Source: Firmicutes bacterium HGW-Firmicutes-14 (GTDB lineage Bacteria; Bacillota; Thermincolia; Thermincolales; UBA2595). Taken from it: 64,000 nucleotides of DNA. Below, one piece after another: positions 4,751-33,536 of the stretch. A model generated the notes under the pieces. The model did not search any database, had not been told where the DNA came from, and saw nothing but the letters and a program-made list of their open reading frames with translations. The stretch's first letter is position 1. Each line of letters opens with the position of its first letter. The translations under genes were made by a program, and so were the position numbers. The stretch covers positions 1 through 64,000 of the forward strand of contig PHAB01000009.1 in NCBI GenBank assembly GCA_002840275.1, in the 5' to 3' direction.

Positions 4751-5965
4751 TTATCTCATTTTAATAAATATTAGTGCCAGCAAAACGAGATACAGTATCA
4801 AGGGTATGAGCGATACCCCAATTCTCTTTAAAAACTGCCCCATGTCTCCGCCAAAAAACTCCAGGTTAAATAACAAAGCGGAGTTAACAGGAGAAACATA
4901 GCACCCAATCCGTGTAAGTGTATATATGATAACAATCTGCTGTATATTAGTCGTCATACCCCCGAAAAGCGTAAAAGACAGGGCAATGGCGCCCACATAC
5001 GACCCCAGGCCGTATCCGATGATAAACGAAAATATAACAGCCAGCAGGAATTCATGGATACCCAGCCTCTGCCAGACCACCAGGGCCTTGGACATTAACT
5101 CCGTCTCTGTTACCACCACCTGAAGGAAAAAAACACCCATAATAAGCCCGAATAAGCTCCAGGACAATCCCTTTTTCATCGCCCAAACGAGAGTTTTAAA
5201 CTCCAACCGGTGCTGGAAAATAAAAAGGATTATTGCCCCTATAAGTGAGTATTCTAACGGTATCCGGAGAATTAAAAACGAGAACAAAATCAGCCATATA
5301 AAACTCGTGTTTATCAAAAAGGCGGCCAAGTCCTGCTTAAATCTTCTCTTTTCCTCTTTTCCGCTGCCGGGAATGTTTATGGAGATGTGGCGTATTTCCA
5401 CCATATATCCTGCCGCCAGCATAATCAGGCTTAATGGCAGGAAATTCAGCACCAGCACAGACGGTTTCACTGTCAGTATACCGGTCAGAGTAACGAAAGC
5501 AAAGGTAATCGGTGATGTAAACTGCACTGTGGAGCGAAACCAAAAGTTGGTATAAGCCTTCGTGGTGGGACTTATATCCAGGTTTTTTGTATATTCATCG
5601 ACCAGGGCAGCCGAGAGGAGCGTTGCCCCGGCCCCCGGAATAACGGCGAAAATAAAAGGCATAAGTATTAAAATAGATCGATAACTCTTAATCAGACCTC
5701 TCAGGTTTTCTGTGATTTTATTCATCACATCGGTTGCACCTAAGAGGCAACGCAAAACCTGGATCAGGTAAATAGTCAATATAATGGTCAGATTATCTAT
5801 GTCAGAGACGGCTAAAGCGATAAAATCCAGGACAGCCCAATAATCGCTAAGCATCAGTCCAATCGCCACGCCGGCTGCCAACAGCCCGATTGTCAAATCC
5901 AGTTTCCACAGGATACAGGCAGCAACTATCAAAAAAATAATAAACAGCGCGAGGTTAGCAATCAT
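4751..5965 (-). CDS. DUF401-family membrane permease
   Basis: 404 aa, the usual length of DUF401 proteins, with about ten hydrophobic segments. The central VIPGAGATLLSAALVDEY segment and the C-terminal TRIGCYVSPVNSALLFNLEFFG stretch resemble the paired re-entrant motifs of the ion-transporter (ArsB/NhaD-like) superfamily to which DUF401 belongs. Most likely a carboxylate or other anion carrier. It is the last gene of the catabolic island, 20 bases after the ThDP enzyme, and ends at a terminator. The substrate cannot be read from the sequence. Confidence 0.8.
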   Translation of the reverse strand: MIANLALFIIFLIVAACILWKLDLTIGLLAAGVAIGLMLSDYWAVLDFIALAVSDIDNLTIILTIYLIQVLRCLLGATDVMNKITENLRGLIKSYRSILILMPFIFAVIPGAGATLLSAALVDEYTKNLDISPTTKAYTNFWFRSTVQFTSPITFAFVTLTGILTVKPSVLVLNFLPLSLIMLAAGYMVEIRHISINIPGSGKEEKRRFKQDLAAFLINTSFIWLILFSFLILRIPLEYSLIGAIILFIFQHRLEFKTLVWAMKKGLSWSLFGLIMGVFFLQVVVTETELMSKALVVWQRLGIHEFLLAVIFSFIIGYGLGSYVGAIALSFTLFGGMTTNIQQIVIIYTLTRIGCYVSPVNSALLFNLEFFGGDMGQFLKRIGVSLIPLILYLVLLALIFIKMR

Positions 5966-5985
5966 ATTATAGTCTCACCATCATT

Positions 5986-7620
5986 CTAGGGAAGAATATG
6001 CCGGTCATCCAGTTTTACATCGATTAAAACCGTATTATCAGTCTCCAATGCCAGTTTCATGGCTTTATCCATTTCTTCCCCGGTTCTTACAGTGATTCCT
6101 TCGGCGCCGAAACCCCGCGCTATTATTGCAAAATCCACATCATTAAAAGTGCTTCCCATCAGCCGTCCCCCGTGCTGTTTGATCTGTTTGGTGGTGATAT
6201 TCCCCAGCACGCTGTTGTTAAAGACCACGGCAATCACTTTTTTCCCGCAGCGGACAGCAGTGTCAAGCTCCTGGATGGTCATCGCTGCTCCTCCGTCGCC
6301 CATGACTGCTACGACAGTCTTATCGGGCTTGCTGAATTTGACCCCGATTGCTGCCGGCAGGCCAAATCCCATGCTGCCGCCGGCCGGGGCAAAAAATGTA
6401 TTGGGAAGATTGAACCGGTAAAACTTGGTGATAAAGTACACGAAGGCTCCGGAGTCAGTTACTATCGTCGTATCCGGTTCCAGATGATTGTTCATTGAAC
6501 GGATGATGTCATAAGGAGTTATGGAATCACCGTTTATTTCAGGAAGCGCGGTCTGCTCCAAATATTCACCGCGGAGCCGTGATATCCAGGTTTCCCTGCT
6601 TTTATGCCGGTCCTGGGAGACTGAAACCTGCTCACACATATCTGCCAGGACCGCTTTGTAATTACCGCAAATGCCAAATTGAGGCGGATAAATCTTGCCG
6701 ATTTCTTCCTGGTCTTTATCAATATGAATCAGGGTTTTGCCCGCTAAACCCAATTGGTACCTTGAGGTCGTATTTTCGGAAAACCTGCAGCCAACTGCAA
6801 TAATCAGGTCAGCCTCGGCCAGGGCTTTTTTGGTTGCAGGCATACTGCGAAACCCTGTGCCCAGCATGCCCAGGTAATGCGGATCCTTATAGGGAAAAAT
6901 ATCGTTTCTCATCCAGGCACTTGTAACAGCACTCCCCGTTATTTGAGCAAACTTTGCCAAAAGGTTTTCCCCCGCATAATCCTTAGCGCCGCCACCCGCT
7001 ATAATCAAAGGCCTTTGGGCGCTTTCCAGTGCTTCGTAAACCTCGCTGTTGAACTTTTTATTTAATGACAATGTCCCTTCCGCAGGTAGTTGTTCCCCAC
7101 GGTTTTTAGGTGAAACTTCGACCCGGGCGATATCCCCGGGAATTGAAATGAGCACCGGTCTTTTCCGCCCTGACATGGCAAAATGGATTGCCCTGCCGGT
7201 AAGTTCGGCAGCCCTCTCCGGTTGAAATACCTCTATCTGGTATTTGGTTACCGGTTTGAACAGAGTCTCTAAGTCAATTTCTTCGAAGGCATCTTTATAG
7301 AGAATATCCGAATCTACCTGACCGACAATTGTTATTATCGGAACAGATTCCTGATAGGCATTATGTAAGCCCAGAATGGTATTTGCAGCTCCCACTCCCC
7401 GGGAAACCAGGCATATCCCAGGTTTTCCTGTTGCCCTGGAGTATCCGTCAGCCATATGTACGGCGCCCTGCTCATGCCGGGCTAATACCAGTTTCATCGA
7501 CTGATTTCTGCTGAAGACATCAAAAAGAGCAAGATTGGTTCCTCCGGGATATCCAAAGACGTACTCTGTGCCATAACCGGCCAGTTCGTTCAGTACTGCG
7601 TCAGCTACCAAATATGCCAA
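5986..7620 (-). CDS. Thiamine-diphosphate-dependent enzyme, acetolactate-synthase-like
   Basis: 544 aa with the three-domain layout of the IlvB/benzoylformate decarboxylase superfamily: an N-terminal pyrimidine-binding domain (RHEQGAVHMADGYSRATG with the catalytic Glu), a middle nucleotide-like domain, and a C-terminal PP domain with the GDGG...FNN metal motif (GDGGAAMTIQEL to VVFNN). It would decarboxylate a 2-oxo acid or ligate it to an aldehyde. No small regulatory subunit lies next to it, so a role in valine synthesis is less likely. The start is TTG, with AGGGGG about 8 bases upstream. Its position at the end of the island suggests it acts on a 2-oxo acid formed by the upstream enzymes. 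Confidence 0.85.
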   Translation of the reverse strand: MAYLVADAVLNELAGYGTEYVFGYPGGTNLALFDVFSRNQSMKLVLARHEQGAVHMADGYSRATGKPGICLVSRGVGAANTILGLHNAYQESVPIITIVGQVDSDILYKDAFEEIDLETLFKPVTKYQIEVFQPERAAELTGRAIHFAMSGRKRPVLISIPGDIARVEVSPKNRGEQLPAEGTLSLNKKFNSEVYEALESAQRPLIIAGGGAKDYAGENLLAKFAQITGSAVTSAWMRNDIFPYKDPHYLGMLGTGFRSMPATKKALAEADLIIAVGCRFSENTTSRYQLGLAGKTLIHIDKDQEEIGKIYPPQFGICGNYKAVLADMCEQVSVSQDRHKSRETWISRLRGEYLEQTALPEINGDSITPYDIIRSMNNHLEPDTTIVTDSGAFVYFITKFYRFNLPNTFFAPAGGSMGFGLPAAIGVKFSKPDKTVVAVMGDGGAAMTIQELDTAVRCGKKVIAVVFNNSVLGNITTKQIKQHGGRLMGSTFNDVDFAIIARGFGAEGITVRTGEEMDKAMKLALETDNTVLIDVKLDDRHILP

Positions 7621-7638
7621 TCTATATACCCCCTAATT

Positions 7639-9651
7639 TTAAATAAACCATGAGATCATTTCCCCTTTAGGGAATGGGATATGGAGGAGTTGTCCAAACG
7701 CTCCCCATAGAAATAACAATGTTACCAGGGAATATATCCAGCTAACTGCCCAATTCTCCCTAAAGTAATATTTCAGATACAACAAGGTGACCAGCGGAAT
7801 CCCAAACGGAAATCCCAAAGCCCAGATTGCAACGGTATATGCAACCACCCAACCCATTGTGATTAACGTTATCCGCACCTCATCCTCAGGTTTTTCCGGT
7901 TCCGGTATTCCTGAAAGACCGGTCTCGGGGTGCACAGCATCAGGCAGGCTTCCCTCAATTTGAAGGTTTTGTTTCTTAATCAGCCTGTAAACAAGGGGAA
8001 TTATCTGAATGACGGCAAAGATCAGAGTTGGTATTCCGATTACCCAGGGGAAAAGCCTGGCGCCAAACCGCCACTGACCTGCGTGCCATACGGCAAAAGC
8101 AAGAATGAGTATTAATAAGAAGGAAAAAATTATCCCACCTATACCTGCCATTTCGGTTTTTGCCTTACTGCCCTGCTTTCGTTTCCTTCCGGCAAGGACA
8201 GAATATGCCAGGGAAACGATAACCATAATTCCTATTATAATTACGCTGGGACGCAAAAGCCATGCCGTACCGCTCAAACCCACTGAAATATACAGGTACC
8301 GTTCAGCCAGTTCACCCAAAACTACCCCCAGAATCAGCGGCGGGCGGGGCCAGTCAAATTTTATCATTGCCACTCCCACAATACCGAATACCAGCATTAC
8401 TATGGTATCACCCAGGCTGTTGGTTTCGGCAAAAGACCCCACAAAAAGAAGAAGGAATAATACCGGAACTAACATACTTCCCTTTAATAAAGTTAACTTG
8501 GCAAGTTTCTTGACAATCAGCAGCAGTAATAAAACTGCCAGGGCATTGGCAACAACCAGGACCCAAACCAGGGAAAAAGTTATATCCAGGTTCTTAGTCA
8601 GCATGTCCGGCCCTGGAACTATCCCGATAATCAGCATAGCTCCCAGGAGGATCGCCATTGTTACCGTACCCGGAACACCGAAGGCCAAAGTGGGCATAAG
8701 GCCTCCCGCTTCCTTAGAGTTATCTGCGGCCGCCGGTCCTATGACACCTTCGATAATACCCTTCCCGGCATTTTCCTTTTCCGGGGAACTTTGAACGGCA
8801 TGGGCATATACCATCCACTGGCTTACACTGCCCCCGATACCGGGTATGAACCCAAGGAATATTCCGATAGCGCTGCTCTTAAGGACCAGCCACCACCTGA
8901 CGATTGTATCTTTCACCCCTGACATGAAATCGGTAACTGTACCTTCAACTTCATCACTTCTTGAGATACCGGTTCCGCTTAATATAAGATCCAGCAGTTC
9001 CGGTATGCCAAACAGTCCCAGGGTAATAGGTATGATTCTCAACCCATCCATGAGGAACAACTGGCCAAAAGTGTAACGGTTAATCCCAAACTGCGGGTCC
9101 GAGCCTACCATTGACAACAGCAGGCCAAAACCGGCCATTATAAGTCCTTTCAGGAGAGGACTGGTCCCACCCAGTGAAGCGATAAAACTTAAACCCAAAA
9201 GGACCAGCATCAATAATTCAGGGGCACCGATAAGGGTAACCAGGGGTTTCATTATTGGAATTGCCACTACCAGAACAACGGCACCAAAGATTCCTCCCAG
9301 TAAAGAACTGGCCAAAACCGCACCAAGGGCCCTCCCGGCCTGTCCCTTTTTCGTCATGGGATAACCGTCCAGCAGAAGAGCCGCGGTAGTCGACTCACCG
9401 GGAATACCAAAAAGGACGGAGGTAATATCACCTGCAGTTGTAACAACGGAATGCATACCCATAAGTAAAGCCAGTGCCGCAACCGGGTCATCGATACTGA
9501 ATACAAAGGGCAGCATTAACGCCATGGTAGTCGCTCCGCCCAAACCGGGGAGTATACCGACAATCAATCCAATTATTACCCCGATAAACAGGTAACCTAA
9601 GGCCGGCCAGGAAAACACCTGGATTAACCCGGACAACATTGCATCAAACAT
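7639..9651 (-). CDS. tctA: Tripartite tricarboxylate transporter permease, TctA-TctB fusion
   Basis: 670 aa, about 170 longer than a normal TctA. Residues 1 to about 495 are the large TctA permease with the duplicated family motifs (GILPGLGGATTMALMLPF, and FIPGIGGSVSQWM in the second half). After a linker, residues about 500-670 hold four more hydrophobic segments of TctB (DUF1468) type. The small membrane subunit is thus fused in, which explains why no separate tctB lies beside it. With the TctC protein at 9740 it makes a complete secondary, cation-driven uptake system for a di- or tricarboxylate. RBS AGGAGG is 7 bases before the ATG. Confidence 0.9.
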   Translation of the reverse strand: MFDAMLSGLIQVFSWPALGYLFIGVIIGLIVGILPGLGGATTMALMLPFVFSIDDPVAALALLMGMHSVVTTAGDITSVLFGIPGESTTAALLLDGYPMTKKGQAGRALGAVLASSLLGGIFGAVVLVVAIPIMKPLVTLIGAPELLMLVLLGLSFIASLGGTSPLLKGLIMAGFGLLLSMVGSDPQFGINRYTFGQLFLMDGLRIIPITLGLFGIPELLDLILSGTGISRSDEVEGTVTDFMSGVKDTIVRWWLVLKSSAIGIFLGFIPGIGGSVSQWMVYAHAVQSSPEKENAGKGIIEGVIGPAAADNSKEAGGLMPTLAFGVPGTVTMAILLGAMLIIGIVPGPDMLTKNLDITFSLVWVLVVANALAVLLLLLIVKKLAKLTLLKGSMLVPVLFLLLFVGSFAETNSLGDTIVMLVFGIVGVAMIKFDWPRPPLILGVVLGELAERYLYISVGLSGTAWLLRPSVIIIGIMVIVSLAYSVLAGRKRKQGSKAKTEMAGIGGIIFSFLLILILAFAVWHAGQWRFGARLFPWVIGIPTLIFAVIQIIPLVYRLIKKQNLQIEGSLPDAVHPETGLSGIPEPEKPEDEVRITLITMGWVVAYTVAIWALGFPFGIPLVTLLYLKYYFRENWAVSWIYSLVTLLFLWGAFGQLLHIPFPKGEMISWFI

Positions 9652-9675
9652 AAAAGTCCTCCTGTTGGATTAATC

Positions 9676-9708
9676 CATTGCCCCAGGGATTGTCTCCCTG
9701 GGGCAATG
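9676..9708 (-). other. Strong intergenic hairpin between tctC and the TctA-TctB gene
   Basis: A perfect 14-bp stem, CATTGCCCCAGGGA / TCCCTGGGGCAATG, encloses a 5-base loop. It lacks a T-run on the minus strand, so it probably stabilises the tctC end of the message or lowers downstream expression rather than fully ending transcription. Confidence 0.65.
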
Positions 9709-9739
9709 ATTTTCAGCTGTGGTATGCGAAATGCAAAAT

Positions 9740-10783
9740 CTATTCAACCATGTATATCTTCTTGAGGGCTGCAACTACATCGGGAGGTGAATTCAATGTA
9801 TCGGAAACCATGTTCTGAATTTCGTCCGCTGAAACAGGATTAATGATTACATCCATTTCCTTGGCTTTTGCCTGGTATTCGGGATCCTCGAGCACTTTCG
9901 CAAAGGCTTCACGCATGATTTTCACAGCCTCTTCATTTGTATCAGGAGGGAAAACAAACGGATAGGCAACCTGGTTGCTCTGGGAAAGTATAAGGGCCAG
10001 GGACTTAGCTGTATCTGTCGGTGCAACATCTTCGGCCAAAGGTACATCCGGAAGGTATTTTGCCCCCAGCTGTACCACAGGTTTAACAATACCGGCATCA
10101 ATCATAGGCATGGCTTTTGTCTGATTAATGGAGAAAGCCTTAAGTTCACCCTGCTGAAGGGCCATTTCAGCTTCATTGCTGCCGGCATATCCGGCTACAA
10201 CATTCATGTTGGCATCGAAATAATCATCATACATACGGGCAATGGCGGCAGGTAACGACTGGGCTCCGGTACCGCCGATACTTACGGGTTCTTTGGCAGT
10301 TTTCAGGCCTTCAAGATCATCTACACCCAGTTCTGACCTGACCAGGAGAATATGGCTTGCTGCACCCCCGTTCCCAATTTGAATAAATTTGCCGACATCA
10401 GCTTCAAGACCTTCCAGTCCAACGAGAGTATTGAGACCGATATTGATACCCCGGTCAATTGTTCCCATTGTCAGGCCATCCTTATCAGCTTGGCTGTAAA
10501 GATAATTGGCAGCCTTCATACTGCTCCCGCCAGGCATGTTTTCAACAATTACGTTCGGGTTCCCGGGTATGTATTTCGGCAGATAAGTGGCAAACAAACG
10601 GGCATTGGTATCATAGCCGCCGCCAGCCGAGTAACCGACTATGATTCTGATAGTTTTTCCTTTGTAATAGTCTTCAGCCGGTGCTGCAGCCTGCTTGTCC
10701 TCGGCGCCGCCGCATCCGCCCAATAAAGATGCGGCAATAATCAACAGGGCCACGGTAGCCAGGGCAAGTATTTTTCTCTTCAC
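9740..10783 (-). CDS. tctC: TctC/Bug-family substrate-binding lipoprotein
   Basis: 347 aa from GTG 10783, which has GAAGGGGG 7 bases before it. The open frame extends upstream, but that part lacks a signal sequence. A signal peptide (KRKILALATVALLIIAASLL) ends in the lipobox LLGGCGG. The mature part begins with the family pattern YYKGKTIRIIVGYSAGGGYD. Proteins of this family capture carboxylates such as citrate or other organic acids and pass them to TctAB. The gene is expressed from its own upstream region and is followed by a strong hairpin and the TctA-TctB fusion. Confidence 0.92.
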   Translation of the reverse strand: MKRKILALATVALLIIAASLLGGCGGAEDKQAAAPAEDYYKGKTIRIIVGYSAGGGYDTNARLFATYLPKYIPGNPNVIVENMPGGSSMKAANYLYSQADKDGLTMGTIDRGINIGLNTLVGLEGLEADVGKFIQIGNGGAASHILLVRSELGVDDLEGLKTAKEPVSIGGTGAQSLPAAIARMYDDYFDANMNVVAGYAGSNEAEMALQQGELKAFSINQTKAMPMIDAGIVKPVVQLGAKYLPDVPLAEDVAPTDTAKSLALILSQSNQVAYPFVFPPDTNEEAVKIMREAFAKVLEDPEYQAKAKEMDVIINPVSADEIQNMVSDTLNSPPDVVAALKKIYMVE

Positions 10784-11160
10784 AAATTTACCCCCTTCAA
10801 TTTTTGAAATCGCAGAAAAAACAAACCGGGTTTCATATTGTTTCCGTCTATACATGAATACTGAGCCTATCACCCCCTCCGGTCAAAATAATCGGATTCC
10901 AAAACAATCATTTCTCGTAATTTTAAATATGATATTTTATATATGATATTATATACTACAAACATCTTCATAATCCTTCTTGCATGTAATTATTTTTCTA
11001 AAATATTATAGCGTGTAATAGTTTAATGCATAAAGTTATATTTAATAATTCCTATTATTATATAATATGCCCTGTTATATATAAATGCTTTACCGGTCAA
11101 CGACCTATAATGGCAATTTAACGGTATGGAGAACTTTGCGTAAAATAATTTTGAATAAAG
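10784..11160 (-). promoter_or_regulatory. AT-rich control region of the first TTT operon
   Basis: No gene lies here. On the minus strand it holds a TATAAT box (in ACACGCTATAAT) and, closer to tctC, two tandem copies of AATATCATAT with a 15-base period (10926-10957). The same element recurs upstream of other units of the island. It is a candidate binding site for the GntR protein encoded at 25156-25827. Confidence 0.45.
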
Positions 11161-11185
11161 ACCCTCTACTGTCAAAGTAGAGGGT
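11161..11185. terminator. Terminator after the second TTT operon
   Basis: A perfect 10-bp stem, ACCCTCTACT / AGTAGAGGGT, with loop GTCAA lies 50 bases after the tctA stop. On the minus strand CTTTATTC follows; on the plus strand GCTTTTTTG follows. Confidence 0.8.
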
Positions 11186-11234
11186 GCTTTTTTGTTTTCC
11201 GGGCGAGGGGTAAAGACCCTGTTATCAAGTACCC

Positions 11235-12764
11235 TTATTTTCCAATTTTTAATTTTGACATAAACTTAAACCTGTTGAAAAAATTGACCAGAGGCGTCTT
11301 GAGGTCAACAAAGGCGCCAAGCACGATGATAAGACTGATAATCAAAACTATTAATGAAACAGGCTTCTGGACAAAGATAGCCCAGGACCCGTCTGAAATC
11401 CTCAAGGCCCGGCTCATATTCGTCTCCAGCAATGTTCCGAGAACCAATGAAATGACCAGAGTTGATAAAGGAAAGCCCCCCCTGTCCAGGATATAACCAA
11501 TAAAACCGAATACTATCATGACCCAGATATCAAAAATATGCCCACGGCTTGATAAAGAACCCAGAATCGAAATAACAGTAACCAGCGGGAGCAAAGTATA
11601 AGGTTTTATTTCGGTAATCTTGGCTAAATATTTGATAATGAACAAACCGGGAAGCAAAATCAAGGGAGCTAAGGCCATCCCCCATACCAGGGTTGGGAAA
11701 AACAGGGACTGGGAGGTATCAAAAAAAGCTTTGCCTGGGGTGAGACCCCAAAGAATCAGCCCTCCCAGCAGGATGGCATCACTTGAACCGGACGGAATCC
11801 CCAAAGCAAAGGAAGATGATAAATTGGCGTAAGCAGTGGCATTGTTGGCCACTTCAGGTGCAATAATGCCCCTGATATTCCCCTTGCCAAAGGAATCTTT
11901 TTCTTCTTGCGTTTTAGAAGCATTTTTCTCCAGCATATAGGCCATAATGTTGCCGATATTGATACCCAGACCTGGCATAACACCGGCAATTATCCCGACA
12001 ATCCAAGCCTTGACAACAGTTATGGGATGCTTAAAAACCGCAATAACACCGGGGAGAACATTCCCTGTTACCTTTTCACCGTGGGAAATTGACTGGCCCT
12101 TAATGGCTGAGTTAATAAGCTGGGAAAAGGCAAAGATACCGATAACCGCAGGGCCGAAAGGTACTCCGTCCATTAGAAAGAGACTGCCAAAAGTAAACCG
12201 CTCGTAAGCAGTTATAACATCCATGCCCACAAAGGCAAACAACAGGCCGACCCCGCCCATGATAAACCCCTTGATTGCTTCTCCCTTTGATGCCGCAGCC
12301 ACAAAGGCAAAGGCCAGGATGATCAGGGAAAAGTACTCCACGGGACCAATATAGGCAACAAGCCTGCCCAAAAGCGGGCCAAGAAAAGCAAGGCAGATTA
12401 ACCCGATAAACGTCCCCAATGTGGAAGACATTATACCTGCTCCCAAGGCCTCAGCCGCTCTGCCCTGTTTGGCCAGGGAAAACCCGTCCCAGCATGTTGC
12501 TATTGAACCTGTTGTACCGGGAATATTTAGAAGCACAGAGGAAACTGAACCACCGGTAACAGTGCCGCAATAAATACTTCCCAATAATATCATAGCTGAG
12601 AGTGGTTCCATCCCAAAAGTAAGGGGGATAGCCAGTGCCAAGGCAAAAACAGGGCCCAGGCCGGGAATAGAGCCAATGATAAATCCACTCCATGCACCTA
12701 TTACTGCCCAGATCCAGAAGTTCCCGACAAACAAGTCAGCCAGTGCTGTCAACCAATCCTGCAC
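11235..12764 (-). CDS. tctA: Tripartite tricarboxylate transporter large permease TctA
   Basis: 509 aa, normal TctA length, with about 12 hydrophobic segments. It has the family motif twice (GSIPGLGPVFALALAIPL near the N-terminus and GVMPGLGINIGNIMAY in the middle). It forms the membrane channel of the second TTT system together with the TctB and TctC genes directly upstream. Start GTG with AAGGAGG upstream, 12 bases after the tctB stop. It differs clearly from the fused TctA at 7639, so the two systems are not a recent duplication. Confidence 0.93.
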   Translation of the reverse strand: MQDWLTALADLFVGNFWIWAVIGAWSGFIIGSIPGLGPVFALALAIPLTFGMEPLSAMILLGSIYCGTVTGGSVSSVLLNIPGTTGSIATCWDGFSLAKQGRAAEALGAGIMSSTLGTFIGLICLAFLGPLLGRLVAYIGPVEYFSLIILAFAFVAAASKGEAIKGFIMGGVGLLFAFVGMDVITAYERFTFGSLFLMDGVPFGPAVIGIFAFSQLINSAIKGQSISHGEKVTGNVLPGVIAVFKHPITVVKAWIVGIIAGVMPGLGINIGNIMAYMLEKNASKTQEEKDSFGKGNIRGIIAPEVANNATAYANLSSSFALGIPSGSSDAILLGGLILWGLTPGKAFFDTSQSLFFPTLVWGMALAPLILLPGLFIIKYLAKITEIKPYTLLPLVTVISILGSLSSRGHIFDIWVMIVFGFIGYILDRGGFPLSTLVISLVLGTLLETNMSRALRISDGSWAIFVQKPVSLIVLIISLIIVLGAFVDLKTPLVNFFNRFKFMSKLKIGK

Positions 12765-12776
12765 AGACCCACCTCC

Positions 12777-13277: not shown

Positions 13278-13331
13278 AATAATCCCCCTTCCGATTAACC
13301 AGCAGAGTTCCCGGAGCTCTGGCGCTGTTAC

Positions 13332-13364
13332 GGTGGTTACGGGTTTCAGGAACCCGCAACCACC
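13332..13364 (-). other. Intergenic hairpin between tctC and tctB
   Basis: A 14-bp stem (GGTGGTTGCGGGTT on the minus strand, one G-U pair) encloses a 5-base loop. It has no clear T-run. The position matches the hairpin after the other tctC gene at 9676, suggesting the binding protein is made in excess of the permease in both operons. Confidence 0.65.
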
Positions 13365-13396
13365 AGTAACCTTTTACTTATACCGGGAACTGATAC

Positions 13397-14600: not shown

Positions 14601-14667
14601 TTTCCCGGCAAAATCCTTCCTAAAATTTCAACTGGTTAAAAAAAGTTTAACGATTTACACTCAGGCA

Positions 14668-15348: not shown

Positions 15349-15363
15349 CCCCCGTCCCCCTTT

Positions 15364-25155: not shown

Positions 25156-25827
25156 TTAGCAGGGAAGCAGTACGTCAACCCCTGATATCTGTGAACCGAA
25201 CTTGTCCTTGATTATCCGGCAGATATGTTTTTTCATGGCAAGTTCAGCAGCATCTCCGTCTGCCTTATTCAGCGCGTCAAGCAGCTCTCTGTGCTCTTTT
25301 ATGGAAGATCTCAGACTGTCACCGGGGTACAGGTTATCCACCTGAATCAGCATAACCTTGTACCTAAGATTTTGCATAAGTTCCTGTACCAGCTTGTTTC
25401 CGCTGGCATGCAAAATCAGATCATGAAGTTCCCTGTCTTTTTGCAGGACAAATTTTATGTCCTTCTTCTCAATAGCTTCAGAAGCTTCTATATAAATCCG
25501 CTCCAGCGAAACCAACACTTCTTCCCTCTTGGGTGATTGAGTCATAAGCCTTGCTGCAAGACCCTCCAACACAGACCTTACGGTATAAATTTCGATTGCT
25601 TCTTTAACGGTCAATGTTGCTACTTCCTTCGTATACCCTTTGGCGCCGTTCACGAGCCCGTCTTTTTCAAGCCAGCTAAGGGCCTGTCTTACCGGGGTTT
25701 TGCTGACACCCAGTTCTCCGCATATATCGTCTTCCAGCAGTTTTTGACCACTAACGATTTCCCCCCTGGTAATCTTGTCCCTTAACACCATGTAAACTTG
25801 TTCGGCCAGGCTCTCCCTATTAATCAT
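25156..25827 (-). CDS. GntR-family regulator, FadR/FCD subgroup
   Basis: 223 aa. Residues 1-70 are a winged helix with the GntR pattern (QVYMVLRDKITRGEIVSGQKL, LGVSKTPVRQALSWLEKDGL). Residues about 85-215 are an all-helical FCD ligand domain with candidate metal ligands (Asp/His in DRELHDLILHASGN, and His in EHRELLDAL and MKKHI). FCD proteins usually sense organic acids and repress their catabolic genes. It sits in the middle of the island and is the only regulator seen there. AT-rich motifs upstream of several island units are possible operators. Confidence 0.92.
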   Translation of the reverse strand: MINRESLAEQVYMVLRDKITRGEIVSGQKLLEDDICGELGVSKTPVRQALSWLEKDGLVNGAKGYTKEVATLTVKEAIEIYTVRSVLEGLAARLMTQSPKREEVLVSLERIYIEASEAIEKKDIKFVLQKDRELHDLILHASGNKLVQELMQNLRYKVMLIQVDNLYPGDSLRSSIKEHRELLDALNKADGDAAELAMKKHICRIIKDKFGSQISGVDVLLPC

Positions 25828-25927: not shown

Positions 25928-27292
25928 TTATTTGGTAAGCAGGGAAACCAGGTCACTAATATCTTCAACCTCTTCAAGCCTGTCCATGAGAGCTATAACC
26001 TTTTCAATCTTGTCGTCATCGATAGCCCCCTTAGCCAAGCCGCGGAACTTGTCTTTAAGACCTTCAGGCGGAATCGGGTTATTGGGGTCACCGGTCGGAT
26101 AATACTGTTTCTCAGTGAAGGACCGTCCGTCATTTAGGTCAATGGTAACAACCGCAGGGAATTTCTCAGGATAGAGTTTGTTTAGTTCGGGATCAGCTAT
26201 TATTTCTACCTTGGCCAGAACTTCCCTCACTGTTGAATCAAAAATGGTTTCTTCTGTGAATTGTTCCATACCGCCTGCTCCGGTTGCAGCAGTAACAGCA
26301 CAACAGTACGGTACACTCAGGCGGGCTGCCATAACAGTCTGGGGATCGTAATTGGAGAAATGGCTGGCAACGGTATTGTATGTCCTGTTAGTAACCTTCT
26401 TAATGTCTGAAGGTTTGATGTTGTGTTCTTTAACCATCCTGATAATGCAATCCATCGGTGAATGACTTGCTGCCAGGGAAGGATACGGTTTTAGTGAGTT
26501 CTGTAACACTACTTCCCAGTCGGTACCGAGTCTGCGAACCAGGTTGTCCAGTTTGGGCTCTTCAAAACAATAGGCATAACTATAACCGCGTGTGTGTTCA
26601 AGCATGGTAGGGGGAGCAGTCGCACCGATTTCAGCTGCCAATGCAGAAAACAGACCGTTAAATGCTGTTTTACCGGGGTTAATACTCTTGGAGTGATCAC
26701 CAAATTCCAGGTAAGTCAGCAATCCGGCAACCTGCGTACCACATAAGCCCAGGGCGTTAATTATCTGTTCTTCGGAAAGGCCGTAGTTTTTTGCCGCAGC
26801 TGCTGCCGCTCCAAAAGTACAGTTGGTAGCTGTACTGTGCCAGAATTTATAATGGCTGGGCATTACTACCATCCCAACTCTTACTGCCACTTCGAATCCA
26901 AGCACGAAACTTAAAATAAAATCCTTTCCACCTTTTTTTGCCCTTTCAGCAGAAGCCAGAGCAGCCGGTACAACCGGAGCGCTGGTGTGGGTCAGGGCCT
27001 CTTTGTGGGTGTCATCAAAATCAATGCCATGGCCCAAGAGTGCATTGGCAAAAGCTGCTATGGGAGCCTTTGCTTTAAGATTGGTTGATACTACACAGGC
27101 CTCATCACCTTCACCGAAAGCTTTTACGATTTCGAACGCCACGCGGGCCTTCTCAGGATCAGCGACCACGGTCCCGAGCATGCAGCCAAGAGTATCAAGG
27201 ATAGTCATTTTGGCAGTCTGCACAACATTTTCGGGCAGGTCTTCAAATTTTGTCTGAGCTACAAATTTTGCAAGTTGCTCTGTTTTTGTCAT
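25928..27292 (-). CDS. MmgE/PrpD-family dehydratase or decarboxylase
   Basis: 454 aa from ATG 27292, with GGAGG 8 bases before it. The open frame extends further upstream, but only over the RraA gene in another frame. The helical MmgE/PrpD fold is recognised by TILDTLGCMLG, the HGIDFDDTHKEALTHTSAPVVPA segment, and MDCIIRMVKEHNIKPSDI. Members include 2-methylcitrate dehydratase, cis-aconitate decarboxylase and iminodisuccinate epimerase, all acting on di- or tricarboxylates. It follows three RraA-type genes in the same direction. It is the third type of hydratase/dehydratase-like enzyme in the island. Confidence 0.88.
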   Translation of the reverse strand: MTKTEQLAKFVAQTKFEDLPENVVQTAKMTILDTLGCMLGTVVADPEKARVAFEIVKAFGEGDEACVVSTNLKAKAPIAAFANALLGHGIDFDDTHKEALTHTSAPVVPAALASAERAKKGGKDFILSFVLGFEVAVRVGMVVMPSHYKFWHSTATNCTFGAAAAAAKNYGLSEEQIINALGLCGTQVAGLLTYLEFGDHSKSINPGKTAFNGLFSALAAEIGATAPPTMLEHTRGYSYAYCFEEPKLDNLVRRLGTDWEVVLQNSLKPYPSLAASHSPMDCIIRMVKEHNIKPSDIKKVTNRTYNTVASHFSNYDPQTVMAARLSVPYCCAVTAATGAGGMEQFTEETIFDSTVREVLAKVEIIADPELNKLYPEKFPAVVTIDLNDGRSFTEKQYYPTGDPNNPIPPEGLKDKFRGLAKGAIDDDKIEKVIALMDRLEEVEDISDLVSLLTK

Positions 27293-27296: not shown

Positions 27297-27986
27297 CTAA
27301 TCCTCCGTTTTTGATTGTAATTTATGATAACCCGTCTGTTGCCGGGCCTCTCTGAGGCTTTTCCCCTGGCGAATGGCTTCCTCGATCCTTGCCTCTGCAG
27401 CGGCAATTCCTTTAGCCACTTCCAGCACTTCCCCGGCACGCTTTAGGGGTATAACAACAACACCTGTATCATCTCCAACCAGAATATCTCCCGGGCAGAC
27501 TTCAACATTCCCTATACTTACCGGCTCATTTATGGATGCCAGTTTTACCCTGTCCTTGCCGGTTACCATAAACCAATCGCGGGAATATACGGGGTATTTT
27601 AACTGCCTTATCTTCGGAACATCCCTGCACACACCGTCTATAACCGTTCCGGCAACCTTCCTCCTTGTTGCCATGACACTGAGCAGGTCACCCCATACCG
27701 TACAGTCCAGCCGGCCGTTGTTATCGATGACAACTATCTCATCTTCATTGACATCATCTATGTAATCTCCCACTGTACCACCGTCAACACCAAAAGGGCG
27801 ATAAGCCAGAGTAAAGGCTGAGCCGGCCATTTTCACTCCCTGAACAACAGCTTTAATTCCGAAGCAGCCGCATTGTATTCCCAGTTTATCCATAGCATCA
27901 GACAGGCAGCATACATCATATTCCGGTTTCCTGAATTCAGCTATAAGTTCTTTTACTTCATTTGTTATTTCAGGTCTCTCTCCCAA
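27297..27986 (-). CDS. RraA-family aldolase/decarboxylase-like protein (copy 1)
   Basis: 229 aa. The RraA/HMG-aldolase fold is shown by DVCCLSDAMDKLGI, VIDGVCRDVPKIRQL (catalytic Arg-Asp in CRD) and PGDILVGDDTGVVVIP. Enzymes of this fold split 4-hydroxy-4-methyl-2-oxoglutarate or 4-carboxy-4-hydroxy-2-oxoadipate to pyruvate, and decarboxylate oxaloacetate. It is the most divergent of three tandem copies: the N-terminal region has CGCFGIKAVV instead of the usual HHSIKPV-type stretch. TTG start with GGGAGGTG upstream. Confidence 0.85.
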   Translation of the reverse strand: MGERPEITNEVKELIAEFRKPEYDVCCLSDAMDKLGIQCGCFGIKAVVQGVKMAGSAFTLAYRPFGVDGGTVGDYIDDVNEDEIVVIDNNGRLDCTVWGDLLSVMATRRKVAGTVIDGVCRDVPKIRQLKYPVYSRDWFMVTGKDRVKLASINEPVSIGNVEVCPGDILVGDDTGVVVIPLKRAGEVLEVAKGIAAAEARIEEAIRQGKSLREARQQTGYHKLQSKTED

Positions 27987-28011: not shown

Positions 28012-28656
28012 TTATTTGAGTCCCTTCTGTTCCAACAGCTTGTCAAAGCCGTAAATCTCCATAGTGGTTTTACCCTGTTTCATCTGTTCCTTAACCCAGA
28101 CTTCCTTTTCATGAATTGCCTCAGCTTTTTTCAGCACTTCCTCTACTTTTCCGGCAGGTATAACCACAACACCGTCCGTGTCCCCGGCAATGATGTCACC
28201 GGGGTTTACTACCTGGCCGCCGCACTGGATAGTTGTATTAATTTTACCCAATGATTCTTTAACTGTTCCTCCGGGGTTGACAGCACGGGCAAATACGGGG
28301 AAATCCATAGCTTCAATGTCATCCACATCACGGCATGCCCCGTCGATGACCACACCCGCCAATCCCTTCAGTTGTGCGGCAAGAGCCATTATTTCTCCAA
28401 GCAGTCCGGCTTCGGTATATCCATTGCCGGCATTGATAACCAGGACACTTCCGGGTTCAGCTTCGGCAATGGCTTTGTGAGGTGTAAGATTATCCCCTGG
28501 CTGGCAGTACACCGTAACCGCCGGGCCGGCCAGTTTAGCTCCCTTATACACCGGCTTAATCGAATGATGCATAGCGCCTGTCTTACCAAGGCCGTCACTT
28601 AATGAACCTGTTGGTACAGCTTTTAATGCTTCAATGAGTTCCTTGCTTACAGCCAC
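28012..28656 (-). CDS. RraA-family aldolase/decarboxylase-like protein (copy 2)
   Basis: 214 aa, the most typical RraA-like member of the three. Visible: VPTGSLSDGLGKTGAM, VYCQPGDNLTPHKAIAEAEPG, GVVIDGACRDVDDIEAMDFP with the catalytic Arg-Asp, and PGDIIAGDTDGVVVIPAGK. The GDN segment for metal/substrate contact is present here but not obvious in copy 1. Probably a retro-aldol enzyme making pyruvate or a related 2-oxo acid. Start GTG with GGAGGT upstream. It lies 25 bases from copy 1 and 26 bases from copy 3. Confidence 0.87.
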   Translation of the reverse strand: MAVSKELIEALKAVPTGSLSDGLGKTGAMHHSIKPVYKGAKLAGPAVTVYCQPGDNLTPHKAIAEAEPGSVLVINAGNGYTEAGLLGEIMALAAQLKGLAGVVIDGACRDVDDIEAMDFPVFARAVNPGGTVKESLGKINTTIQCGGQVVNPGDIIAGDTDGVVVIPAGKVEEVLKKAEAIHEKEVWVKEQMKQGKTTMEIYGFDKLLEQKGLK

Positions 28657-28682: not shown

Positions 28683-29348
28683 TCAGCTGTCTTTTTTCAG
28701 CATCTTTTCATATGAAAACTTGTTATCTACTTCCAGTATGGATTTGCCTGCCAGTATTTCTTTTATCATAGCCTCTTCTTTAGCCAGAATCTTTTCAGCT
28801 TCCATAAGTACCTCATCCAGTTTCTCCTGGGGAATAACCACTATTCCACTGGCATCTCCCACAATTACATCGCCAGGCCTTACCTGAACCCCGGCCAGCT
28901 GGACCATTACATTCCATGAATCCTGCATAATTCTTCCCCGGGCAGTAACAGGAAGTGCGGTTTTTGCCCATACCGGGAAATCTATTTCAGGATATTCGTC
29001 GGCATCACGGACCGCTCCGTCCACAACCACGCCGGAAATACCTTTTTGCTTGGCGGCAGCGGCCAGTATCCCGCCCCAGCAGGAAGCATCTATCTTGCCA
29101 CCGTTATCCACTACGATTACATCTCCCGCCTCCGCAAAATCAATGGCCTCAATTCCCAGATGATGCTTGCTGGGAGTCAGGCCGGCTGCTGTCATCTTGA
29201 TTGTCACAGCACTGCCGATAATTTTCTTTCCATGAATCGGCAATATGTGCAGTGCCGCTCCACGGACACCAATCTTGTCACACGCATCTGACAGGTTGGT
29301 GGTTGCCAGTTTCTCCAGCCTGGCCCTGTGTTCTTTACCTAGTCCCAT
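28683..29348 (-). CDS. RraA-family aldolase/decarboxylase-like protein (copy 3)
   Basis: 221 aa. Motifs: TTNLSDACDKIGVRG, GLTPSKHHLGIEAIDFAEAG, GVVVDGAVRDADEYPEIDFP (catalytic Arg-Asp) and PGDVIVGDASGIVVIP. It is the first of the three tandem copies to be transcribed, behind an AT-rich motif at 29383-29417. The copies share motifs but not close sequence, so they are old duplicates with likely different substrates or a mixed oligomer. Confidence 0.87.
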   Translation of the reverse strand: MGLGKEHRARLEKLATTNLSDACDKIGVRGAALHILPIHGKKIIGSAVTIKMTAAGLTPSKHHLGIEAIDFAEAGDVIVVDNGGKIDASCWGGILAAAAKQKGISGVVVDGAVRDADEYPEIDFPVWAKTALPVTARGRIMQDSWNVMVQLAGVQVRPGDVIVGDASGIVVIPQEKLDEVLMEAEKILAKEEAMIKEILAGKSILEVDNKFSYEKMLKKDS

Positions 29349-29469: not shown

Positions 29470-30033
29470 TTAAATTTTCCCTTCCCATCTCCGGGAAAGG
29501 GTGTTTTCAATCCCCAGATGGTCCAAGACCCTTGATACAGTATGGTTTACTATATCATCCAGTGACCGCGGGTTATTATAAAACGCCGGTACAGGCGGCA
29601 TGATAACAGCACCGAGCCTTGCCAGCTTCAGCATGTTTTCAAGATGAATGGCAGTTAAGGGCATCTCCCGGGGCATCAATATCAATCTGCGCTGTTCCTT
29701 CAAAGTCACATCAGCTGCCCTTACGAGCAGGTTTTCAGCGTAACCGCAGGCTATACCGGCCAGGGTCTTCATACTGCAGGGGGCAATAACCATCCCGTCA
29801 TGCCGGAAAGAACCGCTTGAGACTGACGCACCCTGCTGTCCTTCCTCATAGAACTTTGCGGCCATTCCGATCACCTGGTCCACGGTATAATCTGTCTCAG
29901 CGGCAATGGTTGTTTTCGCCCAGCCGCTTATTACCAGATGGACCTCCACCCCTTTTTCACATAATTCTTCTAACAGCCTTATACCGTAAATCGCGCCGGA
30001 AGCCCCGGAAATCGCCAGTACTATACGTTTCAT
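29470..30033 (-). CDS. ubiX: UbiX flavin prenyltransferase
   Basis: 187 aa, full length. Makes prenylated FMN from FMN and dimethylallyl phosphate for UbiD-type decarboxylases. Motifs: LAISGASGAIYGIRLLEEL for flavin binding, MVIAPCSMKTLAGIA, LILMPREMPLTAIHLENML and a C-terminal MPPVPAFYNNP. The ATG overlaps the stop of the AOR gene (ATGA), so the two are translationally coupled. It serves the UbiD at 19357, about 9 kb downstream in the same island. Confidence 0.95.
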   Translation of the reverse strand: MKRIVLAISGASGAIYGIRLLEELCEKGVEVHLVISGWAKTTIAAETDYTVDQVIGMAAKFYEEGQQGASVSSGSFRHDGMVIAPCSMKTLAGIACGYAENLLVRAADVTLKEQRRLILMPREMPLTAIHLENMLKLARLGAVIMPPVPAFYNNPRSLDDIVNHTVSRVLDHLGIENTLSRRWEGKI

Positions 30034-31871
30034 TGCCTGAAGTCCTCGTCAAGGAGTTTGGCTTCCGCACCAAGTCCCAGTTCTCTCAGAGTTTCCGGTT
30101 TCGGAAATCCGTTTTGGTCCCACCCGAAACTTTCATAGAAATCATCTTTTAGCTCCTCCAGGGGGACGACCAGCCCTTTGTTTGGTCCTGCAGGGGCAGG
30201 CTCTTTCAGCAGCCTGTCAGGCAGCCTGTCGTCTTTACGCCTGATCCCGGCCAGTATATTGAAGACCCTTTCGATGTTTAGGGTCCGGAGAGCAGCTTCC
30301 TCCAGGTCATCAACAGATACGTCTTGTCCTGTCATTCCCGTTATTGCTAAACTCAACGGGTTAAGACCGATGACAGTCCTCCCGAAACTGCACAGAATGG
30401 AACTGTCATAAACTACCCGGATTATTGCCGATTTCTTTACTTGTTCACCTTTTCCCTTAATATTTCTGCCGGTACCGTCACTCAGCTCTATTCTTGCCGG
30501 AACCCCCAGGTCATGGTGGCATCCCCCGCGGGGTCCAAGGGCAAACTGAAGCGCCTGGGCATTGTAGCCGCGGCAGTCATATCCGCCAAACTCCATTCCC
30601 TTTGAATGCATGGCAAAGGCCTCTGAGCCGCCGCCGACCTTTTGACTGGCAGCTTTTGCCCCGTCAGCCAGGACCCCGCCTATTCCCTGCCGGTAAGCCA
30701 TCTTGTGCAGGAGTTGCGGAACCACCCTGTAATTGCCAAAAGAGATTTCCAGGCCGTCACAGTCCTCCTGGCTTAGCAGCCCCCTCTCAAAGCATTCCAT
30801 GGCAAATCCGGTGGTTACTCCGGCAGAAATAGTATCCATACCCAGTTCATCACAGAGCCTGTCTGCGGCAATTATTGCATCAAACCGGTCAATCCCGCAA
30901 TTACTGCCAAAAGCATAAACGGTTTCATACTCAGGCCCTTCACTGCTCATTCCGGCGAATTCTCCCTCCCGCACCAGGGTTACCTTTGAACAGGGGGTGA
31001 TGCAATAAGGGCTGCAGCAAACATCCCGGATGACATATTTTTCCCGGAACACGTCAGGTCCTATGTTTTCCACTTTATCGAAAACACCTGACTGCCAGTT
31101 CCGGGCAGGCAGCATCCCGCTGCTGCTCAGGGTCTCCACATCTCCGGGAGTACCGTAGGTATTGCGCCTGTAACGCCATTCCGGCTTGGCCTTGATCATG
31201 TCTCTGATCTGTACCTTAGCTTCATCTATCAATAACGGATTTTGCCTGGTTATCTTTTGACTTCCTTTGATAACCAGTCCTTTCAGGTTTTTGGCCCCCC
31301 AAACAGCCCCACAGCCGCCCCGGCCAAAAGTCCGCCTGCGTTCACCTTCGGTTACCACGCACGCTGTCTTGAGCAGGTGTTCCCCGGCAGGGCCTATAAC
31401 GGCCACAGATGCACCCGGCACCCTGGCCGTCTCCAGCAGGGCCCTCTGGGCATCTGATGTCATCAATCCCCAGTATTGGCCGGCATCCCGAAAGCTGACC
31501 CGGTCATCAACTACCTGCAGAAAAACAGGATCCTCTGACTTTCCGGTAATAACCATGGCCGTATAACCACAGGCCCGCATATTAATACCCAGGGTTCCAC
31601 CGGCATTTGTATAAAGATAGATACCGGTCTGGGGAGACTTGGTAATCATCTGGGTCCGGCCGCTGAAGGGGACTGAGGACCCCTGGAGCGGCCCGGCTGT
31701 AAATATAATTGGATTCTCCGGGCTGAACGGGTCGGCATCAGGCTTAACCGAATCGAAAAGGAGCCTGACCCCTAACCCCCTTCCGCCAATATACTTTCTT
31801 GTTATGTCAACAGGAAGTTCTTCAATACGGGAAGATTTTTCTGTCAGGTTTATAAAAAGGATTTTGTTCAT
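30030..31871 (-). CDS. aor: Aldehyde:ferredoxin oxidoreductase (tungsten type)
   Basis: 613 aa, normal AOR length. Oxidises aldehydes to acids with reduction of ferredoxin, or the reverse, using a W/Mo-bispyranopterin and one 4Fe-4S cluster. Visible: YIGGRGLGVRLLFD near the N-terminus, TNAGGTLGINMRACGY, the cluster cysteines CCSPYCITPC and a later Cys in YDSSILCSFG. RBS AAAGGAGG lies 6 bases before the ATG. It sits between aconitase X and ubiX in one run of genes. In the island it may handle an aldehyde released by an aldolase or ThDP step. Confidence 0.93.
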   Translation of the reverse strand: MNKILFINLTEKSSRIEELPVDITRKYIGGRGLGVRLLFDSVKPDADPFSPENPIIFTAGPLQGSSVPFSGRTQMITKSPQTGIYLYTNAGGTLGINMRACGYTAMVITGKSEDPVFLQVVDDRVSFRDAGQYWGLMTSDAQRALLETARVPGASVAVIGPAGEHLLKTACVVTEGERRRTFGRGGCGAVWGAKNLKGLVIKGSQKITRQNPLLIDEAKVQIRDMIKAKPEWRYRRNTYGTPGDVETLSSSGMLPARNWQSGVFDKVENIGPDVFREKYVIRDVCCSPYCITPCSKVTLVREGEFAGMSSEGPEYETVYAFGSNCGIDRFDAIIAADRLCDELGMDTISAGVTTGFAMECFERGLLSQEDCDGLEISFGNYRVVPQLLHKMAYRQGIGGVLADGAKAASQKVGGGSEAFAMHSKGMEFGGYDCRGYNAQALQFALGPRGGCHHDLGVPARIELSDGTGRNIKGKGEQVKKSAIIRVVYDSSILCSFGRTVIGLNPLSLAITGMTGQDVSVDDLEEAALRTLNIERVFNILAGIRRKDDRLPDRLLKEPAPAGPNKGLVVPLEELKDDFYESFGWDQNGFPKPETLRELGLGAEAKLLDEDFRQ

Positions 31872-31889: not shown

Positions 31890-32291
31890 TTATTCCAGAC
31901 GAATAATCCCGGCATCACCGTCTACTTCAACCATATCACCGTCTTTTATCAGGTCAAAAACGTTTTCCCCGGGGTCAACAACCATAGGCACTTCGGAAAT
32001 TATGCATCCTGTAACGGTTACAGGGTCTGCCTTCAAATTGATTACCGCCACCGGTCCCATCCCGTTGCACACGGTTTCATAAATCAGGTATGACCCGCCT
32101 GTCGAACCTTTCCCTATCGGAAAAATCAACACTTTATCCTTTATTGACCTGCCTTCAAGGGGATGTCCTTTTTCTGTAATCATCCCGGTATTTACATCGA
32201 CACCGCCGAGAAAACAGATGGGTTCCAGGGAAACCATGGCTTCCCCGCGCCCTGTTCCTCCGACAACTTTCCTTGCCTTTATTGCTCTCAC
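31890..32291 (-). CDS. Aconitase X swivel-domain subunit (DUF126)
   Basis: 133 aa small subunit. Recognised by GEAMVSLEPICFLGGVD, GHPLEGRSIKDKVLIFPIGKGSTGGSYL and DPVTVTGCIISEVP. The serine in KGSTGGS and the hydrophobic segment after it are the swivel-domain signature. It pairs with the catalytic subunit 3 bases upstream. In bacteria this pair type is known as cis-3-hydroxyproline dehydratase; in archaea as phosphomevalonate dehydratase. GTG start with GGAAGGTGG upstream. Confidence 0.92.
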   Translation of the reverse strand: MRAIKARKVVGGTGRGEAMVSLEPICFLGGVDVNTGMITEKGHPLEGRSIKDKVLIFPIGKGSTGGSYLIYETVCNGMGPVAVINLKADPVTVTGCIISEVPMVVDPGENVFDLIKDGDMVEVDGDAGIIRLE

Positions 32292-32294
32292 TTC

Positions 32295-33536
32295 TTAAGA
32301 CCACCTTCCGCTTAAAGCAGCTTTGACACACCTGTTAATACTGCCATAAAAAGTGTCCAGGTTCCATGACCCGGGGGAATAATGGGCAAGTTTCGCTGAA
32401 TTGGTAGCAAGGGAGCGGTATCCCCTCTTTTTTACTACTGCTGCCGTTGACCCAAGTACAGGGCATGTATCACATACTATCTGAGCACCTGCCGCTTCAA
32501 TTTCTTTGGTATACCCCATCCGGTCAGCCATGGTTTTGACCGGCAGTGCGGCAAGTATCCACATGTCGGTATTATCAGCCAGCCGCTTTCCCCGGAGCAT
32601 TTCTGCAACCTGGCCGATTTCCTGTATGGATGCATGGGGACAGCCGACGGCCACCAGGTCCACCCGGTCCCCCTTGTGCTTATTCAACCGGGTAACGGTC
32701 TCCACAGCAGCCTCTTCTGTATATTCCAGGAACTGAACGGGTTCACTGCCGCCAAATACAGTTTCCAGGTCCGGAGCCTCCGGAGTTACTCCCAAAACGT
32801 GGAAAAGAGCAACAGAGCCGGAAGATGCCAGGGCCGCTCCCAGCAGTTTTAACTCTTCCAGGCTGACCGACCAGGGAATTCCTTTAAAAACAGGAACCCG
32901 CTCCTGGACGATATTGCCGGCCCAATACCCAAGGGTTCCATAATCCCAGGGCCCATTTAGTTCAGTATTCACATTAATGAGGACCTGTCCCCGGCGGTTT
33001 TCATCCAGGTGGTATCCATAGGCAGGCACTCTGCCCACAAGGGCGGCCGCAAGGGCTGAAGGCCCCCCTTCCCGGTTGGTCCGCGCACCCAGGACAGAAT
33101 TGGCAAAAGCTATCGCTGATGATTCTCCCCATGCCACATGCTCCCCTTTACGGGGAATGTTCCCCGTCAGGTAGGGAGTGCAGGTGTGGCACGGTACTGC
33201 GCCCATCTCCCTGTATCCACCGGTCAATCGTTCTTGCAGTTCCATGTCTTCCCGGGCAAAACCGATCTCCTGCCAGGTATTGAAATCCCCGGCAGCCGGG
33301 TTAAGGGTGGTGGAGACGGCGAATATCCCGCCTTCTTTCGCCATTTCCTCCACCAGTCTTGTCCCTGCCTTACCCGCCACAATTACCGATGCACCTGGCA
33401 TATGGACATTTGAAACAGGTATCATCTTTTCTGCTCCATATATTTCACCCAATTGGAAGAGTATCTGCATTGCTTTCTGATAAACCCTGCCCCTTTTACC
33501 TGCAAGCATCTCCTCTTCATCCACAGTTAGTCTCAA
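32295..33536 (-). CDS. Aconitase X catalytic subunit (DUF521)
   Basis: 413 aa. Motifs: GEIYGAEKMIPVSNVHMPGAS, CHTCTPYLTGNIPRKGEHVAWGESSA with the Fe-S-region cysteines, ANSVLGARTNREGGP, VAVGCPHASIQEI and the late VCDTCPV. It is a dehydratase fold of the aconitase superfamily, here kept as a separate large subunit. First gene of the minus-strand island, it begins with TTG behind GGGGGAAG. No proline racemase or 3-hydroxyproline gene lies nearby, so the usual hydroxyproline role has no support here. Confidence 0.92.
   Translation of the reverse strand: MRLTVDEEEMLAGKRGRVYQKAMQILFQLGEIYGAEKMIPVSNVHMPGASVIVAGKAGTRLVEEMAKEGGIFAVSTTLNPAAGDFNTWQEIGFAREDMELQERLTGGYREMGAVPCHTCTPYLTGNIPRKGEHVAWGESSAIAFANSVLGARTNREGGPSALAAALVGRVPAYGYHLDENRRGQVLINVNTELNGPWDYGTLGYWAGNIVQERVPVFKGIPWSVSLEELKLLGAALASSGSVALFHVLGVTPEAPDLETVFGGSEPVQFLEYTEEAAVETVTRLNKHKGDRVDLVAVGCPHASIQEIGQVAEMLRGKRLADNTDMWILAALPVKTMADRMGYTKEIEAAGAQIVCDTCPVLGSTAAVVKKRGYRSLATNSAKLAHYSPGSWNLDTFYGSINRCVKAALSGRWS

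Follow-up and report, generated by a model that had tools for sequence, protein, structure and literature searches.

Several described systems use enzymes of the families encoded at this locus. In the lower pathway of gallate/protocatechuate 4,5-cleavage, the CHA aldolase is LigK/GalC and the 4-oxalomesaconate hydratase is LigJ/GalB, and anaerobic nicotinate fermentation includes the dimethylmaleate hydratase DmdAB and 2-methyleneglutarate mutase. Pyrimidines are reduced by PreTA. In the UbiD-family enzyme HmfF, H297 is the histidine that sets furan specificity (PMC7976604). The archaeal modified mevalonate pathway combines two-subunit AcnX with UbiD and UbiX, and the functions of the bacterial AcnX types IIc to IIf were called unknown as of 2023 (PMC10040528).

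We analyzed a stretch of 64,000 nucleotides (hereafter, the window) from contig C13 of a 3.65 Mb draft genome. With a probability of roughly 0.55, its segment 19357-33536 encodes enzymes dedicated to breaking down a branched polycarboxylate, cyclic or unsaturated, in a rare pathway that has probably spread laterally. This segment is the conserved core of the locus and contains genes for both AcnX subunits, three RraA paralogs, UbiX, MmgE, a GntR regulator, a PreA-like reductase, an IDH-like dehydrogenase, LeuC, LeuD, and UbiD (Table 1). The original prediction had described the larger region 4751-33536 as a single island of about 29 kb with all genes on the minus strand. The strand assignment holds for all called genes; no family matched the sole long ORF on the plus strand (14515-15594), and the minus-strand ORF within it encodes an isochorismatase-type hydrolase. 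Nearly all of the families named in the region were recovered by Pfam and NCBIfam profile searches. Those found besides the core families are DUF401, a ThDP enzyme, two TTT systems, an isochorismatase-fold amidase, DASS, NCS2, and AOR. As one unit, the island stands only in part: its core of ~14 kb is conserved, whereas the flank of ~14 kb is mostly not.

The strongest terminator-like site (33777-33750) lies between ilvE and AcnX, at the border of the cluster, and a second strong site (25022-25006) lies between the GntR and PreA-like genes. Because of these two sites, the core is probably organized as two transcription units. Elsewhere in the window, an IS200/IS605 transposase is encoded near the left end (339-746). 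A PduL-type phosphate propanoyltransferase domain (residues 28-210) is encoded together with about 200 more residues at 43458-44711, and 46855-47883 encodes a multihaem-cytochrome-like protein with several CxxCH motifs and no NCBIfam match.

Table 1. Coordinates, placement, and supporting matches of the features at the locus (window numbering).
Feature	Coordinates	Strand	Placement	Evidence
AcnX large subunit, type II two-gene form	32295..33536	-	core	Pfam AcnX 493.6 bits
AcnX small (swivel) subunit	31890..32291	-	core	Pfam AcnX_swivel_put
AOR-type tungsten aldehyde oxidoreductase	30030..31871	-	not core-conserved	AFOR_N/AFOR_C
UbiX flavin prenyltransferase	29470..30033	-	core	TIGR00421 277 bits (cut-off 108.9)
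RraA1	28683..29348	-	core	Pfam RraA-like; 56-63% identity in four clusters; own clade
RraA2, CHA-aldolase-like	28012..28656	-	core	NCBIfam PRK09262 196.8 bits (cut-off 179); best PDB match 3noj
RraA3	27297..27986	-	core	Pfam RraA-like; 54-57% identity in four clusters
MmgE/PrpD-family protein	25928..27292	-	variant B core	Pfam MmgE_PrpD N and C
GntR/FCD regulator	25156..25827	-	core	Pfam GntR and FCD
PreA-like FMN/Fe-S reductase	23657..24940	-	core	NCBIfam PreA 194 bits, below cut-off 335
Beta-decarboxylating IDH/homoisocitrate-type dehydrogenase	22587..23621	-	variant B	Pfam Iso_dh; below every equivalog cut-off
LeuC-like hydratase large subunit	21312..22577	-	variant B	NF001614 552 bits (cut-off 385)
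LeuD-like hydratase small subunit	20817..21308	-	variant B	TIGR02087 LeuD/DmdB 194 bits (cut-off 109); 60% identity in G114
UbiD-family prFMN decarboxylase	19357..20790	-	core	TIGR00148 304.4 bits (cut-off 244.85)
DASS and NCS2 carriers	16524..19315	-	flank, not core-conserved	
NicX/M29-fold metalloprotein	15364..16440	-	not core-conserved	predicted fold pLDDT 82; no Pfam match
Isochorismatase-fold amidase	14668..15348	-	possible accessory	Pfam Isochorismatase
DUF401, ThDP enzyme, two TTT systems	4751..14413	-	flank	conservation with core limited to generic Tct similarity

UbiD, PreA-like, RraA1, and AcnX were used as queries against as many as 399 phylum genomes, and the neighborhoods of the matches were then inspected. 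The top RraA1 matches (55% identity or more) fell in four of 398 other phylum genomes, here called G114, G077, G375, and G385. The top AcnX matches (54% or more, among 399) fell in the identical four, and the two genes lie side by side in every one, an association beyond chance. The cluster of G114, which belongs to another family, keeps 13 genes in nearly the same order, with the core at 54-67% identity and the regulator at 38%. It comprises both AcnX subunits, RraA1-2-3, MmgE, PreA-like, IDH, LeuC, LeuD, a Tct system, GntR, UbiD, and UbiX. The window and G114 share MmgE, LeuCD, and the IDH-type gene and are termed variant B. The clusters of G077, G375, and G385 (variant A) have a reduced core of both AcnX subunits, RraA1-3, PreA-like, UbiD, and GntR; MmgE, LeuCD, and IDH are absent from them. 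UbiX is found near UbiD in G114, G077, and G385, and the contig of G375 terminates within its UbiD gene. A GntR gene lies near every cluster (30-38% identity), as does, in G114 and G077, what we take from reading the sequences to be a 2-oxoacid:ferredoxin oxidoreductase. All three variant A clusters encode a divergent SdhA/TfrA-like flavoprotein (L072:14875-16557, L070:9403-11043). It scored below every NCBIfam cut-off where tested and was rejected as a standard fumarate reductase.

It had been predicted that homologous islands should keep their genes together if the region served one pathway. This is the case for the core, which is co-conserved in four genomes from three other families. It is not the case for DUF401, AOR, the ThDP enzyme, and the five carriers, whose inclusion in one pathway is not supported. 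The left half of the region (DUF401, ThDP, TctAB/TctC, DASS, NCS2, NicX-like) and AOR show no conservation with the core, and AOR is absent from the other clusters. Both RraA1 and AcnX are missing from all eight searched genomes of the window's own family, and RraA1 is missing from close relatives of G375 and G385 (sister species, genera g55 and g223). Such patchy distribution is as expected under lateral spread or repeated loss; the core cluster has probably spread laterally. Plasmid searches with PreA-like and UbiD returned generic relatives only (26-28% and 31-34%, respectively), and a UbiD scan of named genomes gave three actinobacterial loci at 39-40% from which the core is absent. Two genomes of the sample, G002 and G027, have 13 and 12 UbiD-family matches, far above what is usual for the sample. 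Since the cluster is kept in five genomes, there are several systems in which its substrate can be sought.

The three RraA paralogs are distinct from one another. RraA2 passes the model for CHA aldolase/oxaloacetate decarboxylase, with RraA1 (106.3 bits) and RraA3 (90.8 bits) below its cut-off of 179. In the tree, the orthologues fall into three groups, one each for RraA1, RraA2, and RraA3 (support 95/97, 94/88, and 100/99, respectively), the second of which includes 3noj. An Arg-Asp pair that is important in the active-site loop and aligns with that of 3noj is kept in all three window paralogs and in every aligned member. Relatives are also found on proteobacterial plasmids, where RraA3 reaches about 50% identity. 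Plasmids of Cupriavidus, Burkholderia, and Pseudomonas carry the three-gene set in the order 1-3-2, whereas those of several further genera have RraA1 and RraA3 as a tandem pair. That three paralogs are conserved side by side, on plasmids as well as in several families of a single phylum, suggests a multi-subunit enzyme rather than redundancy. We infer that the set is a putatively heteromeric aldolase/decarboxylase for 4-hydroxy-2-oxo polycarboxylates. In genome G078, close RraA2 and RraA3 relatives lie near a 4-oxalomesaconate-tautomerase-like gene (343 bits, against a cut-off of 440). Together with the RraA2 score, this fits the branched hydroxy-polycarboxylate chemistry that had been predicted.

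Other RraA contexts were encountered. The tandem 1-3-2 sets of L058, L059, and L060 come from plasmids of C. necator N-1, B. cenocepacia, and P. aeruginosa; those of L059 and L060 adjoin aminotransferase and 5-oxoprolinase/biotin-carboxylase-type genes, another undescribed context. In G078 (L110:11055-14993), the RraA2/RraA3 relatives are near a tautomerase/PrpF-like gene, an aminotransferase, and a nitrilase-like gene. On a plasmid of C. necator C39, three RraA genes stand beside AcnX large and small subunits (53% and 49%), with UbiD and PreA absent from the stretch read. Cupriavidus is an aerobic genus, and the AcnX-RraA pair therefore need not belong to an anaerobic route.

The PreA-like protein is 63% identical in G114 and about 30% in variant A. 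It keeps the position of DPD Cys671, and the pyrimidine contacts are changed (N609 to His, N736 to Ala, T737 to Asn), with residue roles as in pig DPD. Given these changes and its score of 194 against 335, the protein was not classified as the NAD-dependent dihydropyrimidine dehydrogenase PreA. It would nonetheless have a place in a special case of the main reading, in which the starting compound is an N-heterocyclic polycarboxylate such as a pyridine carboxylate. In that case, the PreA-like enzyme would reduce the ring and, after ring opening, hydrolysis of the amide by the amidase would yield an aconitate- or oxalomesaconate-like acid for the remaining steps. The best PDB matches of the amidase are 3ot4/3uao, the maleamate amidase NicF, and N-carbamoylsarcosine amidohydrolases, and a 41% relative recurs once, inside the G385 cluster. 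The predicted fold of the adjoining gene product resembles 2,5-dihydroxypyridine dioxygenase (7cn3/7cup; TM 0.73-0.77 at 16-17% identity), its H298 and H316-x-D318 are invariant in 20 relatives, and an NCS2-type carrier is present. An M29 aminopeptidase was rejected for this protein (TM 0.56-0.59). The amidase and NicX-like pair thus supports a nitrogen-containing substrate for the window version, but lies outside the conserved core. Against such a source, the amidase is absent from the stretches read in G114, G077, and G375, the NicX-like and NCS2 genes are absent from all four, NicX needs oxygen, and the DPD pyrimidine contacts are altered. The N-heterocyclic origin raised in the original prediction keeps some support from the amidase of G385 and the NicX-like fold, and we regard it as rather unlikely.

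The AcnX and UbiD proteins raise a different alternative. The large subunit of AcnX shares 53-62% identity with its counterparts in the four clusters and C. necator C39, and the small subunit adjoins it in all of them. Its three Fe-S cysteines are kept (C119, C299, and C358, equivalent to C122, C297, and C356 of ApPMDh), as are the carboxyl-contact residues S130 and K361. The best PDB match is 7cnr, the type IIb AcnX of T. kodakarensis (290 bits), compared with 204 bits for hydroxyproline dehydratase. The phosphate contacts of TkPMDh (G48, V49, S50, N53, N79, P80) are not fully kept; the window has Ala in place of V49 and Val in place of N53, which speaks against classifying the protein simply as a type IIb phosphomevalonate dehydratase. 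The hydroxyproline pathway was rejected, with 302.8 bits against the NF051439 cut-off of 700. Genes that we read as proline-racemase-like and cyclodeaminase-like stand beside AcnX proteins of 40-43% identity in G238 and G055, and none stand beside the window AcnX. In G121 (L124), the contig ends at a 50% AcnX large subunit, and both a transporter, probably of the TRAP type, and an AOR relative of 29% are located nearby.

UbiD has the N, Rift, and C Pfam domains of its superfamily, a score above the subfamily cut-off, and a UbiX partner at 29470. It is 67% identical in G114 and 35-42% in variant A, and its best solved match is HmfF (6h6v, 234 bits). The position of HmfF His297 is Gln in the window and G114 and His in G077; the furandicarboxylate/HMF pathway was rejected for the window on the basis of this replacement. 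As AcnX is nearer to the type IIb enzyme than to hydroxyproline dehydratase, keeps its cysteines, S130, and K361, and accompanies UbiD in five of five clusters, the two could act in succession, in the manner of the archaeal modified mevalonate pathway. AcnX would dehydrate a tertiary 3-hydroxy acid, UbiD would decarboxylate the unsaturated product, and the compound degraded would be a linear branched acid without a ring, resembling citramalate, methylcitrate, or hydroxymethylglutarate. We consider this improbable: the solved structures nearest to UbiD are those of the (hetero)aromatic HmfF group, the N53 position is Val in the AcnX of all clusters, and the PreA-like reductase would be left without a role. 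Finally, it is very doubtful that the locus consists of several independent operons (AcnX-RraA-UbiX; PreA-IDH-LeuCD-UbiD; transport) with no common pathway; the terminator-like site within the core, the plasmid RraA sets without AcnX, and the non-conserved left half favor this, but both core halves co-occur in G114, and three more genomes combine AcnX, RraA, PreA-like, and UbiD.

The remaining genes distinguish variant B. MmgE probably starts at the ATG at 27292, just after RraA3, since the longer ORF overlaps RraA3. Its best PDB matches are iminodisuccinate epimerase and cis-aconitate decarboxylase. Among the clusters, relatives of MmgE (62%) and the IDH-type dehydrogenase (61%) are found in G114 only; LeuC-like is 65% identical there and is below the LEU2 cut-off in the window. 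Contig C34 encodes a second LeuC (45%) with a LeuB-like gene, and C15 has a separate gene of the IDH type. The window LeuCD and IDH are extra rather than housekeeping copies, and leucine biosynthesis was rejected as the role of LeuCD in view of the C34 genes. As variant A does without MmgE, LeuCD, and IDH, these may serve another compound.

Under the preferred reading, in which a cyclic or unsaturated polycarboxylate with a branched skeleton is degraded, uptake would rely on different carriers in different genomes. The following roles are judged by enzyme family. The PreA-like Fe-S flavoprotein may carry out the reduction of a ring or of a conjugated double bond. One carboxyl group would be removed by UbiD, whose prenyl-FMN UbiX supplies, and AcnX would act as a hydratase or dehydratase on a tertiary beta-hydroxy acid. 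Retro-aldol cleavage of a 4-hydroxy-2-oxo acid (4-carboxy-4-hydroxy-2-oxoadipate-like) could then fall to the RraA set, giving pyruvate together with either oxaloacetate or a similar compound. Variant B may use MmgE, LeuCD, and its IDH-type enzyme to isomerize a tricarboxylate-like by-product, with oxidative decarboxylation to a 2-oxo acid; the SdhA/TfrA-like flavoprotein would replace them in variant A. In some versions, the amidase may serve to liberate nitrogen. The substrate and the order and direction of the steps are thus predicted, and anaerobic life of the pathway is suggested by the presence of AOR and oxygen-sensitive enzyme types. Substrates may differ between variants, considering the low identities of PreA-like and UbiD across them. 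That a cyclic polycarboxylate is degraded anoxically by the joint action of bacterial type II AcnX, a heteromeric three-paralog RraA, a divergent PreA-like reductase, and a prFMN decarboxylase is a tentative proposal, which we place somewhat below even odds.

Literature searches for a published pathway with this gene combination, for dipicolinate, and for citrazinate returned nothing relevant within partial coverage that included few subscription papers. To that extent, the earlier statement that no described pathway has this set agrees with our findings. The gallate/protocatechuate 4,5-cleavage route is similar in having a CHA-aldolase like RraA2 clustered with a hydratase. It differs in that no ring-cleaving dioxygenase of that pathway is annotated here, AcnX is present instead of its hydratase, and the window adds two RraA paralogs, UbiD, and PreA-like. 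Nicotinate fermentation shares the LeuCD/DmdB family of the small subunit (TIGR02087), but no gene of that pathway was recognized in the window annotation. PreTA has the same PreA-like domain order and Cys671 position; the window protein differs in its score below the PreA cut-off, its changed contacts, and the lack of a recognized PreT gene. HmfF is the closest solved UbiD, but its H297 is Gln here and no other hmf-type gene was recognized in the window annotation. The archaeal modified mevalonate pathway has the same two-subunit AcnX with the same three cysteines, together with UbiD and UbiX (PMC10040528); the window cluster is bacterial, has Val at N53 and a UbiD near HmfF, and adds RraA and PreA-like. 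The parts belong to known families, whereas their combination, the three-RraA set, and the genomic context that the cluster provides for bacterial two-subunit AcnX appear to be new.
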